Below are positions 45,762 through 55,303 of a stretch of 64,000 bases of DNA, one piece after another. The notes below the pieces were generated by a model. That model had not been told where the DNA came from. It made no database searches and saw nothing but the letters and a program-made list of their open reading frames with translations. Made by a program: the position numbers and the translations under genes. This stretch comes from an uncultured Tateyamaria sp. (GTDB lineage Bacteria; Pseudomonadota; Alphaproteobacteria; Rhodobacterales; Rhodobacteraceae): assembly GCF_947503705.1 (NCBI RefSeq), contig NZ_CANNES010000010.1, positions 62,001 through 126,000 on the forward strand. The letters run 5' to 3'. How positions within the stretch are numbered: position 1 is the stretch's first letter; each line of letters opens with the position of its first letter.

Positions 45762-46835
45762 CTAGTCTTCATCATTGTCGGCGATCAGCATCAGTTCGCC
45801 CGCCGCCTCCATCTGCCGGATCGTAGCGACGACAGTGCCCATGGCGGTGTCGGTTTCGGCGGCGTTGGGCTTGTCCATCTCCTGAATGGTTTCGCGCATC
45901 TGGTCGGCCAGACGGGCCGACATGTTATCGAGCAGGTGGTCAGCGCTGGCCTGCAAATTCATGGCGGGCGCCCCGGCAAGGGCGATCATCAGCGCGTCCT
46001 GATCCATTTCGCGCAAGATCCGAGGTACGTCGCGCGGCGCGATCCGTGCGGGGATATTGGCAAAGGTAAAGATCGCCTTGCGGACCTCATTCGCGAACCC
46101 CTCATCCGTTTCGTCAAGCCCTGCAAGCATGTCCTCGCGGGTGATGGAGGTGGTGGAATTGAGAATCGCACCCACCCGTTGCACTGGCCCATCGTTGAAG
46201 GCCCGCACAGGACGCGCATCCAGCTGGCTGGCCAGCGACAATCCGATCCGATCCACGGCTTCGGGCGTCACGGCCCCGGTCAGCGACACCGCATAGGTGA
46301 TCTGCCGGGCGCGGGGGCCGGGTAACTTGCCCAGCAGTTCAGCGGCCTTGCTGACATCGAGTTTGGACAGCATGACGGCGGCGATTTCGACGCTTTCCTC
46401 CTCAAGAATAGGGAGCAGCAGTTCGGGGCCCATATCGCGGATGCGTTTCCAGGGGTCGCCTGCCTCGCGCACGCCGGCCTCTTTGCGCAGGCGGGCGGCG
46501 GTTTGCGGGCTGATCCGCCCATCCAGCGCATTAAGTGCGCCCGCCATGCCGCCGAGAAAGGACAAACCGATGCTTTCCACCTCGCTGGCGAATTCCTCGG
46601 CCACTTGTTTGAGCGTATCACGGTCAACCAGCCGCATCTGGCCCATGGCCTTGGTGAGGTGTGCCTGCAACTCTTCCGGCAGGTCCTCAAGCGGGATGTC
46701 AGCGCCCTCGTTCAGCAAAAGCCGCACGACGATGGCGGCCTTTGCCCGGCGGCTGAGCGCGCCGGAGGCCAGCGTAAGACCGCCGCCCGATCGCGTGACA
46801 GCGGGGGCGGCGGAAATGGGAACCAATTCGGTCAT
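45762..46835 (-). CDS. fliG: FliG-like flagellar motor switch protein
   Basis: A 357-residue protein with the layout of FliG: an N-terminal helical domain (SRRAKAAIVVRLLLNEGADI), a middle ARM-like domain (EIAAVMLSKLDVSKAAELLGKLP) and a C-terminal domain (AIFTFANIPARIAPRDVPRI, LREMDQDALMIALAGAPAMN, NMSARLADQMRETIQEM, AAGELMLI). FliG forms the torque ring of the flagellar C-ring and contacts the stator. The FliG EHPQ motif is absent. No other flagellar gene is near, which is unusual. ATG 46835 is chosen because GAGG lies 8 bases upstream; two further upstream ATGs are possible. Confidence 0.8.
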   Translation of the reverse strand: MTELVPISAAPAVTRSGGGLTLASGALSRRAKAAIVVRLLLNEGADIPLEDLPEELQAHLTKAMGQMRLVDRDTLKQVAEEFASEVESIGLSFLGGMAGALNALDGRISPQTAARLRKEAGVREAGDPWKRIRDMGPELLLPILEEESVEIAAVMLSKLDVSKAAELLGKLPGPRARQITYAVSLTGAVTPEAVDRIGLSLASQLDARPVRAFNDGPVQRVGAILNSTTSITREDMLAGLDETDEGFANEVRKAIFTFANIPARIAPRDVPRILREMDQDALMIALAGAPAMNLQASADHLLDNMSARLADQMRETIQEMDKPNAAETDTAMGTVVATIRQMEAAGELMLIADNDED

Positions 46836-46920
46836 GACCTGCCTCAAGAACGGATACGGCTCGTTCATGGCAGGCAAAGGTTGAGAAACCCTCAACCCCT
46901 GGTCTGTTTAGCGAGTGGGC

Positions 46921-47942: not shown

Positions 47943-49250
47943 TCAATCCTCTTGGAACACCCGGGCAAAGATCGTGTCGACGTGCTTGGTGTGATAGCCA
48001 AGATCGAACTTTTCCTCGATCTCTTCGGGGCTGAGGGCCGCGACAACGTCGGCATCGGCCAGCAGCTCTTCTTTGAAGTCCGTGCGATGCTCCCAGACCT
48101 TGAGTGCGTTGCGCTGCACGAATGTATAGGCGTCCTCGCGGCTGACACCGGCCTGGGTCAGGGCCAAAAGCACCCGCTGGCTCATCACCAGACCGGGGAA
48201 CTTGTTCATGTTGTCCATCATGTTGTCGGGAAAGATCAGCATCTTGTCGATCACGCCGGTAAGGCGGGACAGCGCAAAATCGAGGGTGATGGTGGCGTCG
48301 GGGCCAAGCATCCGCTCGACCGAGGAATGCGAAATGTCGCGTTCATGCCAGAGCGCTACATTCTCCATCGCGGGGATCACGGCAGAGCGGACCATGCGGG
48401 CCAGGCCCGTCAGGTTTTCGGTCAGCACGGGGTTTTTCTTGTGGGGCATCGCGCTTGAGCCTTTCTGGCCCATGGAGAAGAACTCCGCCCCCTCAAGCAC
48501 TTCGGTGCGCTGCATGTGACGGATTTCGGTGGCGATGTTTTCGATGCTGCTGGCCACAACGCCCAGGGTCGCGAAAAAGGCCGCGTGGCGGTCGCGGGGG
48601 ATCACTTGAGTGCTGATAGGCTCGGGCACGAGGCCCAGCTTGTCGCAGACATGTTCCTCCACCGCAGGGTCGATATTGGCGAACGTGCCGACCGCGCCGC
48701 TGATGGCACCCGTGGCAATCTCGGCGCGGGCATCGCGGACGCGGCTGAGGTTCCGGTCCATTTCGGCATAGAACCGGGCAAAAGTCAGGCCCATCGTCGT
48801 TGGCTCGGCGTGGATGCCATGGCTGCGGCCGATGCGAACGGTGTGCTTGTGCTCCATCGCGCGGCGTTTGAGGGCGGCAAGCAGCCCCTGGATATCGGTG
48901 ATCAAGAGGTCCGCCGCGCGAGTCAGTTGGACGTTGAAACAGGTGTCGAGCACATCCGAAGACGTCATGCCCTGGTGGACAAAGCGGGCCTCGTCGCTGC
49001 CCACATGTTCGGCCAGATGGGTGAGAAAGGCGATGACGTCATGTTTGGTTACCGCCTCGATCTCGTCGATGCGGGCCACGTCGAATTCCACGTCCTTGGC
49101 CTTCCACACAGCCTCGGCGTTTTCGCGGGGGATCACGCCCAGATCGGCCATGGCGTCGCAGGCATGGGCCTCGATCTCGTACCAGATCTTGAATTTCGTG
49201 GCAGGTTCCCAGATGGCAACCATGTCAGGGCGGGAATAGCGTGGGATCAT
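47943..49250 (-). CDS. purB: Adenylosuccinate lyase
   Basis: Purine-biosynthesis lyase acting on SAICAR and adenylosuccinate. 435 residues, normal for the alphaproteobacterial form. Blocks: MIPRYSRPDMVAIWEPATKF (start), KHDVIAFLTHLAEHVG, FVHQGMTSSDVLDTCFNVQL with the catalytic His, GRSHGIHAEPTTMGL, and the fumarase-superfamily signature GSSAMPHKKNPVLTENL. ATG 49250 is chosen because the protein then has the usual start and length with AAGG upstream; ATG 49301 adds 17 residues. A divergent secreted-protein gene starts 99 bases upstream. Confidence 0.95.
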   Translation of the reverse strand: MIPRYSRPDMVAIWEPATKFKIWYEIEAHACDAMADLGVIPRENAEAVWKAKDVEFDVARIDEIEAVTKHDVIAFLTHLAEHVGSDEARFVHQGMTSSDVLDTCFNVQLTRAADLLITDIQGLLAALKRRAMEHKHTVRIGRSHGIHAEPTTMGLTFARFYAEMDRNLSRVRDARAEIATGAISGAVGTFANIDPAVEEHVCDKLGLVPEPISTQVIPRDRHAAFFATLGVVASSIENIATEIRHMQRTEVLEGAEFFSMGQKGSSAMPHKKNPVLTENLTGLARMVRSAVIPAMENVALWHERDISHSSVERMLGPDATITLDFALSRLTGVIDKMLIFPDNMMDNMNKFPGLVMSQRVLLALTQAGVSREDAYTFVQRNALKVWEHRTDFKEELLADADVVAALSPEEIEEKFDLGYHTKHVDTIFARVFQED

Positions 49251-49349
49251 GGCGGGCACCTTTTCCGTGTTGTGCGAAATATGGACTGTTGGAATTTTCA
49301 TCGCGCTCTTAGACTGCGTGCGATCCCGCGACAAGGTGAAGGCCCGGAT

Positions 49350-49691
49350 ATGAGACGCTTTGTGACACGCTTTGCCCTGATGACTGCCGTTTTGGCGGGC
49401 CCTTCGGCGGCTGAGGACTGGAGTGTGATGGACGGCGCAGAGATCCGCGCCGCCCTTGAAGGGCGCACATTGCAATATGCCAACGCGTGGCAGGAGTTCC
49501 GGACCTCGGGTCGGACACTCTATAATGCAGGGCAGGACAGTTGGGGATATTGGCGGGTGCAGGGGGATCAATATTGCAGCCAATGGCCGCCTTCTGACCT
49601 GTGGGCTTGTTACGCTATGGATCGGCGGGGCGATGTGCTGCGCTTTGTGGGCGAACGGGATGACATCACCGAAGCGGTCTATGCCGACTGA
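49350..49691 (+). CDS. Small secreted protein of unknown function
   Basis: A 113-residue protein with a signal peptide (RRFVTRFALMTAVLAGPSAA) and a mature part with two Cys (DQYCSQWPPSDLWACYAMDR) and many aromatic residues. It contains ALEGRTLQYANAWQEFRTSG and GYWRVQGDQYC, a pattern seen in small periplasmic proteins of this group, but no named family is recognised. The long frame upstream is antisense to purB. It overlaps the DUF6314 gene by 11 bases. Confidence 0.75.
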   Translation: MRRFVTRFALMTAVLAGPSAAEDWSVMDGAEIRAALEGRTLQYANAWQEFRTSGRTLYNAGQDSWGYWRVQGDQYCSQWPPSDLWACYAMDRRGDVLRFVGERDDITEAVYAD

Positions 49692-50097
49692 AATGCGGGT
49701 TCTGGCGGAGTTCGAAGGTGTCTGGCGCATCGCGCGCGAGATCGTTCCGGATCGTGGACCGCCTGCGCATTTCGAGGGGCAAGGGGTGTGGGCGCCCGCG
49801 GCGGGTGGCCTGGACTATGCCGAGCGCGGGATGCTGAACATGGCTGGCGCTGCGCCGATGGTGGCCGAGCGGCGCTATTTCTGGGGGAATGACCTGTCTG
49901 TTTACTTCGACGACGGGCGATTTTTTCACAAAGTCCCCGCGGCAGGGGGGGAGGCCGCCCATTGGTGCGATCCCGATCAGTATCACGTGCGATATGATTT
50001 CGGTGCGTGGCCCCGCTTTGACGTGATCTGGCGGGTTGTGGGGCCGCGCAAATCCTATCGGATGACCAGCCGGTTCAGCCGCTTGGAAGAGCCGTGA
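49681..50097 (+). CDS. DUF6314 family protein
   Basis: A 138-residue protein with lipocalin-like beta character: LAEFEGVWRIAREIVPDRGP at the start, GGLDYAERGMLNMAGAAPMV, YFWGNDLSVYFDDGRFFHKV and HWCDPDQYHVRYDFGAWPRF. This matches the DUF6314 family, common in Rhodobacteraceae. ATG 49681 overlaps the previous gene; ATG 49693 is possible. Function is unknown; a ligand-binding barrel is inferred. Its 3' end overlaps the convergent DUF6455 gene by 23 bases. Confidence 0.78.
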   Translation: MPTEMRVLAEFEGVWRIAREIVPDRGPPAHFEGQGVWAPAAGGLDYAERGMLNMAGAAPMVAERRYFWGNDLSVYFDDGRFFHKVPAAGGEAAHWCDPDQYHVRYDFGAWPRFDVIWRVVGPRKSYRMTSRFSRLEEP

Positions 50098-51186: not shown

Positions 51187-51213
51187 TTCATCGTTCCTGA
51201 AATACTCAAATCA
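51187..51213 (-). repeat. Short intergenic repeat element next to the OsmC-fusion stop
   Basis: TTCATCGTTCCTGAAATACT followed by CAAATCA matches the left arm at 40150 (TTCATTGTTCCGATAAATAT, then GCAAATC) at most positions. The minus-strand gene's stop codon sits at its edge, so the element marks the 3' end of that gene, as is expected of a dispersed post-stop repeat. Confidence 0.5.
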
Positions 51214-52440
51214 CGCCTCAGCCAGCGCCACATCCACCAGTTCCGTGATCACGGTGGAAGAGCGTTCGAGCGTCCGGTGTACCGGGCACTTGTCAGCAAT
51301 TTCGAGCAGGCGTTGCCGTTGGTCCGCGTCCAGTGTGCCCGTCAGGGTGATCCGCCGTTTCCATTCGTCGATCTTGTCGCCCACGCCGGTTTCGGCGTCT
51401 TGGGCGTGCACCTTGTTGTGGCTCACATCCACCGATACGTGATCCAGCGCCCATTCCTTGCGCCGCGCATACATGCGGATCGTCATCGAGGTGCAGGCTG
51501 CCAGCCCGGCGCTGAGCAGACCGTAGGGCGACAGCCCCTGGTTGGTGCCGCCATAGGCGCGCGGCTCATCCGCCAGGATGTGGTGCCGGGTGCCGTGGAT
51601 GATGTCCTGCAAGTAGCCGTTTGGGTCGGCCTCGGAGCTGCGCACGATCCCTTCGGGCGCGCCGATGGGCGGCGCGGGGGGCTTGAGTTCCAGATATTTG
51701 CGCGCCCAGGTCGCGATGATGTCGGCGGCGTATTCCGCGTGCTCGGCCCGGGTGACAAGGTGGTCGGCGTCGTCCAGCGTGACGAAGCTCTTGGGGTGTT
51801 TGGCCGCCAGAAAGATGTCACTGGCATTGTTGATGCTGACGATGGTGTCGCCGGGCGCGTGCAGCACCATGAGGGCGGCCTTAAGCTTGCTGATGACCGG
51901 TGAAAGCGCTTCGCTGGCGACGTCCTCGATGAATTGTTTGCCGATGCGGAAGGGGCGGCCACCAAGGCTGACCTCGGCCTCGCCTTTGGCAATGATTTCG
52001 GGCACTGCGTCAGCAAAGTTATGGGTGACGTGACCGGGGTCGAAAGGGGCACCGATGGTGGCCACGGCCTTGATCTGATCGAGGTTTGCCGTGGCCTTGA
52101 GCACTGCGGCCCCGCCCAGGGAATGGCCGATCATCAGGCTCGGGGCCATGTCCCGTTCATTGAGGTATTCGACGGCCTTTTCAAGGTCTTGCACGTTGGA
52201 AGTGAAGGATGTGTTTGCGAATTCGCCGTCGCTGTGCCCCAAGCCGGTAAAGTCAAAGCGCAGCACCGCGATGCCCAGCGTGGTCAGCCGGGCCGCAATC
52301 CGGCGGGCGGCGGGGATGTCCTTGCCACAGGTGAAGCAATGGGCAAAGACGGCCGTGGCCAGATGCGGCCCTTCGGGCAGGTCCAGACGGGCGTCGAGCG
52401 TGCTTGCGTGACCCGGAAAAGTGATGCGTTCGGTTGGCAT
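51211..52440 (-). CDS. Fused alpha/beta hydrolase and OsmC-family protein
   Basis: A 409-residue fusion. Residues 1-250 form an alpha/beta hydrolase: LRFDFTGLGHSDGEF, the nucleophile elbow LMIGHSLGGAAVLKA, the acid in LHAPGDTIVSINNA and the His in TLDDADHLVTRAEHAE. Residues about 270-409 form an OsmC/Ohr-type peroxiredoxin domain: YGGTNQGLSPYGLLSAGLAA with CTSMTIRMYA (first Cys), and DKCPVHRTLERSSTVITELV (second Cys). OsmC proteins reduce organic hydroperoxides through the two Cys. The fusion suggests ester or peroxy-ester detoxification, as inference. ATG 52440 follows the unrelated upstream frame. Confidence 0.9.
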   Translation of the reverse strand: MPTERITFPGHASTLDARLDLPEGPHLATAVFAHCFTCGKDIPAARRIAARLTTLGIAVLRFDFTGLGHSDGEFANTSFTSNVQDLEKAVEYLNERDMAPSLMIGHSLGGAAVLKATANLDQIKAVATIGAPFDPGHVTHNFADAVPEIIAKGEAEVSLGGRPFRIGKQFIEDVASEALSPVISKLKAALMVLHAPGDTIVSINNASDIFLAAKHPKSFVTLDDADHLVTRAEHAEYAADIIATWARKYLELKPPAPPIGAPEGIVRSSEADPNGYLQDIIHGTRHHILADEPRAYGGTNQGLSPYGLLSAGLAACTSMTIRMYARRKEWALDHVSVDVSHNKVHAQDAETGVGDKIDEWKRRITLTGTLDADQRQRLLEIADKCPVHRTLERSSTVITELVDVALAEA

Positions 52441-52720
52441 GATTTCGTCCCCTTGTTGCGACAAAGAATGGGGACGCATGCCCCGGCTGTGAAGGGGGTG
52501 TAGCATGGCTCACGACATGGTGTTGGTGCTTCGCATTTCATTACAAAGGCTGCCAGAGACTGACGGGCCGGGTTTTTTGCGTGGGACCGACAGGGACATG
52601 TGCGCGGGGCTGCCCGGGTGCGCTGGTCAAACGGTTAATTTTCCGCGCTTTGACGAGGGCTGCATTCACCAAGTCTTAACATCTGTTTGAAAGTATGAAC
52701 GGGGGCTTAAAGGACGGTAA

Positions 52721-53034: not shown

Positions 53035-54378
53035 TTAACCCTCGCCCATCAGCATCGGATCAAAGGGATATGTCGTCAGGTTCTCGAACCCGTCTTCGGT
53101 CACCAGCACCTGATCCTCCAGCTTGATCGAGAAATCGCCACCGACTTCACCCACCGAAGCCTCGACACACAGGACCATGCCCGCCTCAAGCGGGTGGTCG
53201 AACGCGCCCGGCACGGCCTTGTCCGGGTAAGCCACAAGGGGCCATTCGTCACAGAGCCCAACGCCGTGCATCAGGCAGCCATATTTCAGAGCCTGGTATT
53301 TGTCATCGAGCCGGTGGCAATTGGCCGTAAGCTCGGGGATCATGACACCGGGTTTGATCATTTGCATGTTGGTCTGGATGTGTTCAACCGCGTGGCGCAT
53401 GGCATAGACCATATCGGGGGGCGGTTTCTGTTCCCCGATCCACCAGCTGCGCGAAATGTCGATGCAGATCCCGTAAGAGCCGATAAGGTCAGTGTCGAAG
53501 GAGATAATCTCGTTGCGCTGGCAGACCCGCCCGCCGCATTCCTGGAACCACGGATTGGTGCGTGGGCCAGAGGCGAGGAGCCGCGTTTCGATCCATTCGC
53601 CGCCCCGCTTGATGTTTTCGGCGTGCAGCACGGCCCAAACGTCGTCTTCGCAGGTCTTGCCGTCGCCCACATTGGCGCGGGCGAAATCCTCCATCGCTTT
53701 GACGGAGGTTTCGCAGGCGTGGTTGGCGCAGCGCATGGCGAGGATTTCATCAGGCCCTTTTACACTGCGCGATTTTTCGGTGACTTCCTCGCCGTCGATG
53801 AGGGTAAAACCCTGCGCCTCCAGAGCGCGCGCGCCGTGCAGCATGATCTTGTCCACGGCCAGGCGCTTGTTGCCGCCGCCATGTTCGGCGATCAGGTCCC
53901 GCACCTCGGCAGAGAGCGGATCGGCAACCTTGTCGGGCCGGTCGCCGGCGGAGAAGTAGAACATCGACGCGCCGGAGCGGACTTCGCGCACCAGCGGGTT
54001 GAAGCCGGAGAGGAAGGGCGCGTTTTTGTAGTCCCAGATCACCATGTAGCCGTCGGCACAAAGCAGCACGGCGCGGAACGGGTTATGCGTGTTCCACAGC
54101 TGCATGTTGGTGCTGTCGGTCGCATAGCGGATGTTGAGCGGGTCAAACATCAAGAGACCGCCAAGGTCACGGTCCACGATATGCTGCGTCAGCCGCTTCC
54201 AGCGGAATTCGCGCATGGCGGCCAGATTGGGCAGTTGCAGCCCCGCTGCGGCCCATTCGTCAAAGGCCAGTTGCGTCGGCCCGATCTCGATCCGGTCGGC
54301 GTCATTTGGGGTGCCGTCGCCGAGCGTTGCACCCCGATTGGGGTCGATTTTGCGGGTTTCGCGGTAGTGCTGGTTCAT
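53035..54378 (-). CDS. dddP: DMSP lyase DddP
   Basis: Cleaves dimethylsulfoniopropionate to dimethyl sulfide and acrylate. It belongs to the M24 metallopeptidase (pita-bread) fold but is not a peptidase. The 447 residues start MNQHYRETRKIDPNRGATLG, as in Roseobacter DddP. Residues known from the Ruegeria enzyme are all at the same numbers here: D295, D297, D307, H371, E406 and E421 (metal ligands), and Y366 and D377 (catalysis), found in ISFDTDLIG, CIDISRSWW, GCLMHGVGLCDEWP, LCVEASVG and LEDQV. ATG 54378 has GAGG upstream. It is divergent from the DUF3445 gene. No acrylate-use gene (acuI, prpE) is next to it. Confidence 0.96.
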   Translation of the reverse strand: MNQHYRETRKIDPNRGATLGDGTPNDADRIEIGPTQLAFDEWAAAGLQLPNLAAMREFRWKRLTQHIVDRDLGGLLMFDPLNIRYATDSTNMQLWNTHNPFRAVLLCADGYMVIWDYKNAPFLSGFNPLVREVRSGASMFYFSAGDRPDKVADPLSAEVRDLIAEHGGGNKRLAVDKIMLHGARALEAQGFTLIDGEEVTEKSRSVKGPDEILAMRCANHACETSVKAMEDFARANVGDGKTCEDDVWAVLHAENIKRGGEWIETRLLASGPRTNPWFQECGGRVCQRNEIISFDTDLIGSYGICIDISRSWWIGEQKPPPDMVYAMRHAVEHIQTNMQMIKPGVMIPELTANCHRLDDKYQALKYGCLMHGVGLCDEWPLVAYPDKAVPGAFDHPLEAGMVLCVEASVGEVGGDFSIKLEDQVLVTEDGFENLTTYPFDPMLMGEG

Positions 54379-54544
54379 GGTGGCCTCGCTGTTTGGATCA
54401 GCGTGGCGCGGAAATTTCCACGATGTTTGCCAGAATGCGACGTGTTTCGGCGTCGTTTTCACGCATGGTTTCGATGGAGTGGAGCGCCGCCCTTGTGCGG
54501 TTTGGTGGGTTTTGGTCCTGCGGTTGATCCGGTAGGTTTGGGAT
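54379..54544. promoter_or_regulatory. Divergent dddP / DUF3445 promoter region
   Basis: The 166-base gap carries two inverted-repeat candidates: a GGAAATTTCC palindrome at 54410-54419, flanked by CGTGG and CCACG, about 32 bases before the dddP ATG; and CGACG / CGTCG around an 8-base spacer at 54438-54455. Either may be an operator controlling one or both genes. No regulator gene is adjacent. Confidence 0.35.
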
Positions 54545-55303
54545 ATGAATGTCATGAAGGCCCCCATTTTACAGCGGCATTTGCCTGCTGACATGCAGGC
54601 TGGCCGGGCGCTGCCGGGCATCCAGCCAGAGCATGGCCCGTGGCTGCGCGTGGATGAAGCCTATGGCGCACAGATGGCGCGGCGGCGCGCGCTGCTGCGA
54701 GATGCGCCGCACCTGGTCCTTTACCAGGAGAACGCGGCCTTGCCCGCGGCACAAGAGCTTTTGGAGGCGGTTCTGACGGAACTGCCGGGCCTTGGATTTG
54801 AGCGTGCGGGCGATGTGGTGACTTGTCCGGATGCCCGTAAGGTGGACGTGTCGTCCACCACCGCGCCGATGGGTCTGCTTGGGGAATTGCTGCAGAACGA
54901 CTTTATCATCATGGAAAAACGCGGCGACGAACACGTGTTGAGCGCCGGTGTGCTATGTTTTCCGGCGTCGTGGCGGTTGAGCGAAAAGGCGGGTCGCCCG
55001 CTGACGGACATACATGTGCCGGTAGAGGAATATACGCCCGAGTTGGCGCGCCGAGTGCAGCGCCTTTTTGACGGGATCCAGGTGGGCCGACCGCTCTGGC
55101 GCTTCAACCAGCTGTGGTACGATGATCCCGAGTTGTTTCAGCCCCGGTCGGCCCGGGACCCGCGCCGCGTGGATGCGACGGAGGCGGGGCCGTTTTACCG
55201 AACCGAGCGGCAGACGCTGCTGCGCCTGCCGATCAGCCGTGCGGTGGTGTTTGCCATCCACACTTACGTTTTGGCCCGGGCGAATGTGCCTGACCTGACC
55301 TGA
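54545..55303 (+). CDS. DUF3445 haem-dependent oxidative demethylase-like protein
   Basis: A 252-residue protein of the DUF3445 family, which includes the haem-dependent oxidative N-demethylases acting on dimethylamine with an electron-transfer partner. Visible blocks: GIQPEHGPWLRVDEAYGAQM, LLGELLQNDFIIMEKRGDEH, VLCFPASWRLSEKAGRPLTD with IHVPVEEY, and FYRTERQTLLRLPISRAVVF with IHTYV. The Cys and His that could bind haem are not assigned here. The partner reductase genes seen in full demethylase operons are not present. Start could be ATG 54545 or 54554. It is divergent from dddP. Confidence 0.85.
   Translation: MNVMKAPILQRHLPADMQAGRALPGIQPEHGPWLRVDEAYGAQMARRRALLRDAPHLVLYQENAALPAAQELLEAVLTELPGLGFERAGDVVTCPDARKVDVSSTTAPMGLLGELLQNDFIIMEKRGDEHVLSAGVLCFPASWRLSEKAGRPLTDIHVPVEEYTPELARRVQRLFDGIQVGRPLWRFNQLWYDDPELFQPRSARDPRRVDATEAGPFYRTERQTLLRLPISRAVVFAIHTYVLARANVPDLT

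Follow-up and report, generated by a model that had tools for sequence, protein, structure and literature searches.

A predicted DMSP lyase gene of the ordinary DddP type in a Roseobacter-type bacterium and its chromosomal setting

DMSP is an algal compound, and DddP is a well-known marine enzyme which converts it to acrylate and the gas dimethyl sulfide (DMS). The closest described systems are RlDddP of Ruegeria lacuscaerulensis (PDB 4rzy, 4rzz, 4s00 and 4s01) and RdDddP of Roseobacter denitrificans (4b28). In PMC10686828 4S01 is given as RlDddP, and PMC4108388 identifies RdDddP as the protein of its PDB entry and, in the abstract, terms it a 'putative' lyase. The latter source (Hehemann 2014) lists Asp295, Asp297, Asp307, His371, Glu406 and Glu421 as metal ligands and favours Asp377 as the base. 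According to PMC5395565, DddP chemistry employs a movable iron on the carboxylate, a Trp and a Tyr on the sulfur and an Asp as proton acceptor, and RlDddP acts on DMSP with a Val-Pro activity below measurable levels. The same source places the Km of DddP enzymes for DMSP in the millimolar range, and reports that DMS production is reduced by 50% in a dddP mutant of R. pomeroyi and that 10% of the wild-type DMS is left in a dddP mutant of R. nubinhibens. DddP therefore need not carry the main flux, given its millimolar Km and the half of the DMS that is kept in the R. pomeroyi mutant, although the R. nubinhibens mutant points the other way. DMSOP is also a substrate of DddP, mostly a poorer one than DMSP (PMC10686828).

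The gene described here lies on the minus strand of the window, i.e. the whole 64,000-nucleotide stretch of DNA that was analysed, and extends from 54378 to 53035 as 447 codons with zero internal stops (Table 1). The first-pass annotation had placed a full-length 447-residue gene at 53035-54378 without naming a strand, and this placement holds; the plus-strand frame across the same interval represents an antisense open frame only. The longest mechanical ORF of dddP reaches 54621 (528 aa), however the start was assigned to 54378 as homology is found from residue 1 and as a GAGG, the probable ribosome binding site, is located 5 bases ahead of the ATG. The promoters of dddP and of the divergent HODM-like gene may both be situated in the gap that separates them.

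Table 1. Features discussed in the text; positions refer to the window unless another contig is named.
Feature	Position	Strand	Remarks
dddP, predicted DMSP lyase	53035..54378	minus	447 aa, ATG at 54378..54376; homology
GAGG, probable ribosome binding site of dddP	54384..54387	minus	read in sequence
Gap separating divergent dddP and HODM-like gene	54379..54544	none	ORF map, sequence reading
HODM_asu-like (PF11927) protein	54545..55303	plus	252 aa; conserved beside dddP, divergent orientation
Alpha/beta hydrolase-OsmC fusion	51211..52506	minus	431 aa; conserved neighbour of dddP
purB (adenylosuccinate lyase)	47943-49730	minus	595-aa frame
FliG-like protein	45762-46895	minus
DddL-type cupin DMSP lyase candidate	1420-2100 of L108 (contig C1 of the same genome)	minus	PF16867

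The dddP product could be aligned without gaps to RlDddP (4rzy; 369/445 residues identical, 82.9%) and to RdDddP (4b28; 338/445, 76%). A phmmer search against the PDB returned 4rzy as the top match (E 4.3e-267, 889.5 bits), followed by the variants 4s01 and 4s00 and then by 4b28, and the NCBIfam DddP equivalog NF043017 was covered over model positions 1-443/443 and scored 887.9 bits, where 600 is the cut-off. Nei-Gojobori dN/dS values of 0.06-0.16 were obtained for dddP against eight relatives, ratios which are rough owing to dS values of 0.8 to 1.3 in these comparisons, and purifying selection acts on the gene. The E value, the 83% gapless identity over 445 residues and the dN/dS values together exclude a chance match. 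There is very little doubt, on comparative grounds, that the gene encodes an ordinary DddP, i.e. a DMSP lyase with the M24-peptidase fold, of a Roseobacter-type bacterium, and in view of the 83% identity to 4rzy the protein is expected to form a homodimer with a binuclear iron centre. RlDddP is alike in its 447 residues, its numbering and the eight active-site residues named below but differs from the window protein, which is known from its sequence, at 17% of residues; RdDddP possesses the same six metal ligands and is somewhat more distant.

Residues D295, D297, D307, Y366, H371, D377, E406 and E421 are present at the same numbers as in RlDddP and RdDddP, and all eight are unchanged in 81/81 aligned sequences (the query plus 80 loci), an agreement which is expected and constitutes no independent test as the 80 loci are the best-scoring of 458 relatives. 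The six metal ligands by which a DddP is recognized (D295, D297, D307, H371, E406 and E421) are thus all in place. W95, which would be the sulfur-binding Trp, is present too, beside D377 and Y366. In the printed alignments 4s00 corresponds to the RlDddP sequence changed at position 366 and 4s01 to that changed at 377, which fits with the treatment of both positions as active-site residues. The reading of this gene as a DddP DMSP lyase with these eight residues, as put forward in the first-pass annotation, is supported at this level by the closest characterised homologues, and the alignment which that annotation had suggested as a check identifies DddP lyases and not prolidases as the nearest characterised proteins (889 versus 43 bits). 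If the mechanism is carried over from the homologues on the strength of this identity, two iron ions would be bound by three Asp, two Glu and one His as in the crystallised proteins, the movable iron would bind the carboxylate of DMSP, the sulfur would be held by the Trp and the Tyr, and removal of the alpha proton by Asp377 would lead by beta-elimination to DMS and acrylate, which are the best prediction for the products of this enzyme. Acrylate would then reach propionyl-CoA by way of a PrpE-like acyl-CoA ligase and AcuI. The activity, expression and in vivo flux of dddP in this bacterium are matters which we infer.

The distribution of the gene was assessed in a sample of 394 genomes spread evenly over the family, 217 of which scored above the DddP cut-off; some match at E 0.001 was found in 341, the extra ones being mostly other M24 proteins, and among 14 control genomes 11 had a match at E 0.001 and 0 scored above the DddP cut-off. 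The nearest named relatives are Tateyamaria loci (L004-L008), with dddP proteins 88-91% identical; Ruegeria/Silicibacter loci (e.g. L010, L012-L026 and L043) show 82-83% identity. In both groups the gene neighbourhood is partly alike, some loci differing by extra genes between dddP and its neighbours or by the absence of neighbours. Further Tateyamaria loci (L028, L031, L039, L042, L049 and L054) show only 81-83% identity. Titles and abstract openings in the literature on Tateyamaria with DMSP, and on dddP with synteny, contained nothing on this gene, and the available part of PMC4337385 makes no mention of dddP.

Within the genome, which comprises 4.43 Mb in 31 contigs, full-length dddP was found as a single copy, and two M24 paralogues are only distantly related to its product (28% and 24% identity). 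Of the genes that the first-pass annotation had proposed to look for, dmdA is present, its product scoring 692 bits against an equivalog cut-off of 410, and acuI adjoins it in the same orientation. The AcuI candidate scored 642 bits against AcuI of the PDB and passed the subfamily model TIGR02823 (446.2 versus 297.25) while narrowly missing the NF051456 AcuI equivalog (418.5 versus 440 bits); PrpE-like ligases are present, the best one scoring below both PrpE cut-offs (661.3/827.4 and 694.8/955 bits). One BCCT transporter was found, under every curated cut-off compared. The best Methyltransf_2 match, sought as DsyB for DMSP synthesis, had BchU/CrtF as its top model, a weak match (64.3/276.1 bits) made with no DsyB reference in the comparison.

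A protein of 226 aa matching PF16867 (169.9 bits versus a cut-off of 27) is a candidate DddL-type cupin lyase, an assignment based on Pfam and on a plasmid protein which carries a DddL annotation and shares 63% identity with the candidate over 98%. On the plasmid, a TetR-type regulator and an oxidoreductase precede the annotated DddL. The candidate aligns weakly to DddQ (38 bits) and retains, as judged by eye, the cupin His-x-His, Glu, His and two Tyr. Its gene converges on a phenylacetate-CoA ligase (PaaK) frame with a 4-base overlap. A second PF16867 match in the genome was dropped, as it scored 21.5/27 bits and weakly resembled ChrR-type anti-sigma models.

It is a distinct, though clearly the less probable, possibility that dddP is intact but minor, the DddL-type lyase being the main source of DMS and DmdA demethylating most of the DMSP. 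While the presence of a candidate with the cupin motif and of a DmdA above its equivalog cut-off would be in keeping with such a division of labour, it agrees less well with the purifying selection on dddP, with the occurrence of dddP above its cut-off in more than half of the sampled family genomes, and with the outcome of an NCBIfam search in which no model was matched by the DddL-type candidate. That DMSOP, cleaved to DMSO and acrylate, would be the main physiological substrate of this DddP in place of DMSP is unlikely: according to PMC10686828, the known DMSP lyases tested, including DddP, cleave DMSOP and the Roseovarius nubinhibens DddP in E. coli slightly preferred it, but DMSP is favoured by most DddP enzymes, its cleavage by DddP is the more efficient, and the DMSOP activity conferred by dddP is far below that of some other lyases. 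Cleavage of DMSP is the predicted role of the window protein, yet the DMS and acrylate output of the organism is something that we infer, as a second lyase candidate and a demethylase share DMSP and as DddP also cleaves DMSOP.

The reading of the protein as a prolidase, or as another M24 peptidase merely resembling DddP, was rejected as having next to no likelihood since, despite Pfam Peptidase_M24 and Creatinase_N matches above cut-off, the best prolidase in the PDB, the proline dipeptidase that follows 4b28 in the ranking, reached just 43.2 bits, the four remaining NCBIfam models gave 24.8-34.6 bits against cut-offs of 393-630, and the M24B Xaa-Pro dipeptidase/aminopeptidase models were not reached (NF007310, 30.6/393 bits; NF040821, 29.3/630 bits). 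The DddP entries themselves bear the PDB titles 'Peptidase M24' and 'metallopeptidase'. Two substrate histidines of M24 peptidases are replaced by Asp and Phe in DddP (PMC5395565); in the window protein Phe278 is aligned opposite a His of the proline dipeptidase 5giu, and the Asp may be Asp377, which is present.

The gene neighbourhood was surveyed in 80 dddP loci over up to 10 kb per side (E 1e-8), some of them on short contigs, and matches to the HODM-like gene occurred in 68 loci, to hydrolase-OsmC in 69, to purB in 62, to MltB in 68, to glnA in 68, to BioY in 36 and to a VOC protein in 15. The HODM-like match was divergent and at most 200 bp from dddP in 59/80 loci, 78 of the 80 having at least 1 kb on this side of dddP, while an OsmC start was located no more than 1 kb downstream of dddP in 43/80 and was combined with a divergent HODM-like gene in 40/80. 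Two observations concern other genes of the window. Homology of purB begins at residue 161 of its frame, the true start probably lying near codon 160, and the FliG-like protein passed three Pfam FliG domains but missed the NCBIfam FliG model (119.9/226.7 bits), possibly representing a divergent flagellar switch protein.

Among the 394 family genomes dddP and a short HODM-like gene occurred together in 189, the HODM-like gene only in 105, dddP only in 28, and 72 had none of the two (odds ratio 4.6, Fisher p 3e-10, shared ancestry uncorrected). For this count presence of dddP was defined as a best E below 1e-180 (217 genomes), 14 genomes whose single PF11927 match was taken for the long form were left out of the short-form count, and genomes with two PF11927 matches were counted, unchecked, as having the short form; the division into long and short forms in the family, by open-frame length and score, is our own reading. 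In 20 stretches from the 105 genomes with the HODM-like gene only, picked among the best-scoring matches listed, glnA was nearby in 13 and hydrolase-OsmC in 7, a dddP match near the HODM-like gene was found in 0/20, and in 7/20 the HODM-like gene was the sole window neighbour matched. The HODM-like gene is hence not dependent on dddP, as it is found without dddP in 105/394 genomes and block genes are kept in 13/20 stretches, and a role as a dedicated dddP partner is not supported since it occurs without dddP, often in the same block; nor is a partnership in DMSP metabolism evident. Rather, dddP fills a slot of a conserved chromosomal block that is able to exist without it, given that dddP-less loci retain glnA and, less often, OsmC.

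The HODM-like protein of the window, a short one, matches the haem-dependent oxidative N-demethylase 5lte of the PDB (45 bits) over residues 59-289/344 of the latter, the C-terminal part of which is consequently without a counterpart. By analogy with dimethylamine demethylation the protein could be imagined to S-demethylate oxidatively the DMS formed by the neighbouring dddP, or to share regulation with dddP, a proposal which derives from neighbourhood and moderate co-occurrence and which we regard as very improbable. Titles and abstract openings in the HODM / DUF3445 literature held no DMSP link, and PMC13390433, which deals with the catabolism of trimethylamine by marine bacteria, may bear on the long HODM-like form.

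The finding of dddP is correct but ordinary, the family being well studied and common in this lineage, and knowledge of DddP is unchanged by this copy of an already known enzyme. Beside DddP the genome encodes a second candidate lyase and a demethylation route, and the bacterium joins the many Roseobacter-type bacteria that are predicted to release climate-active DMS from DMSP.
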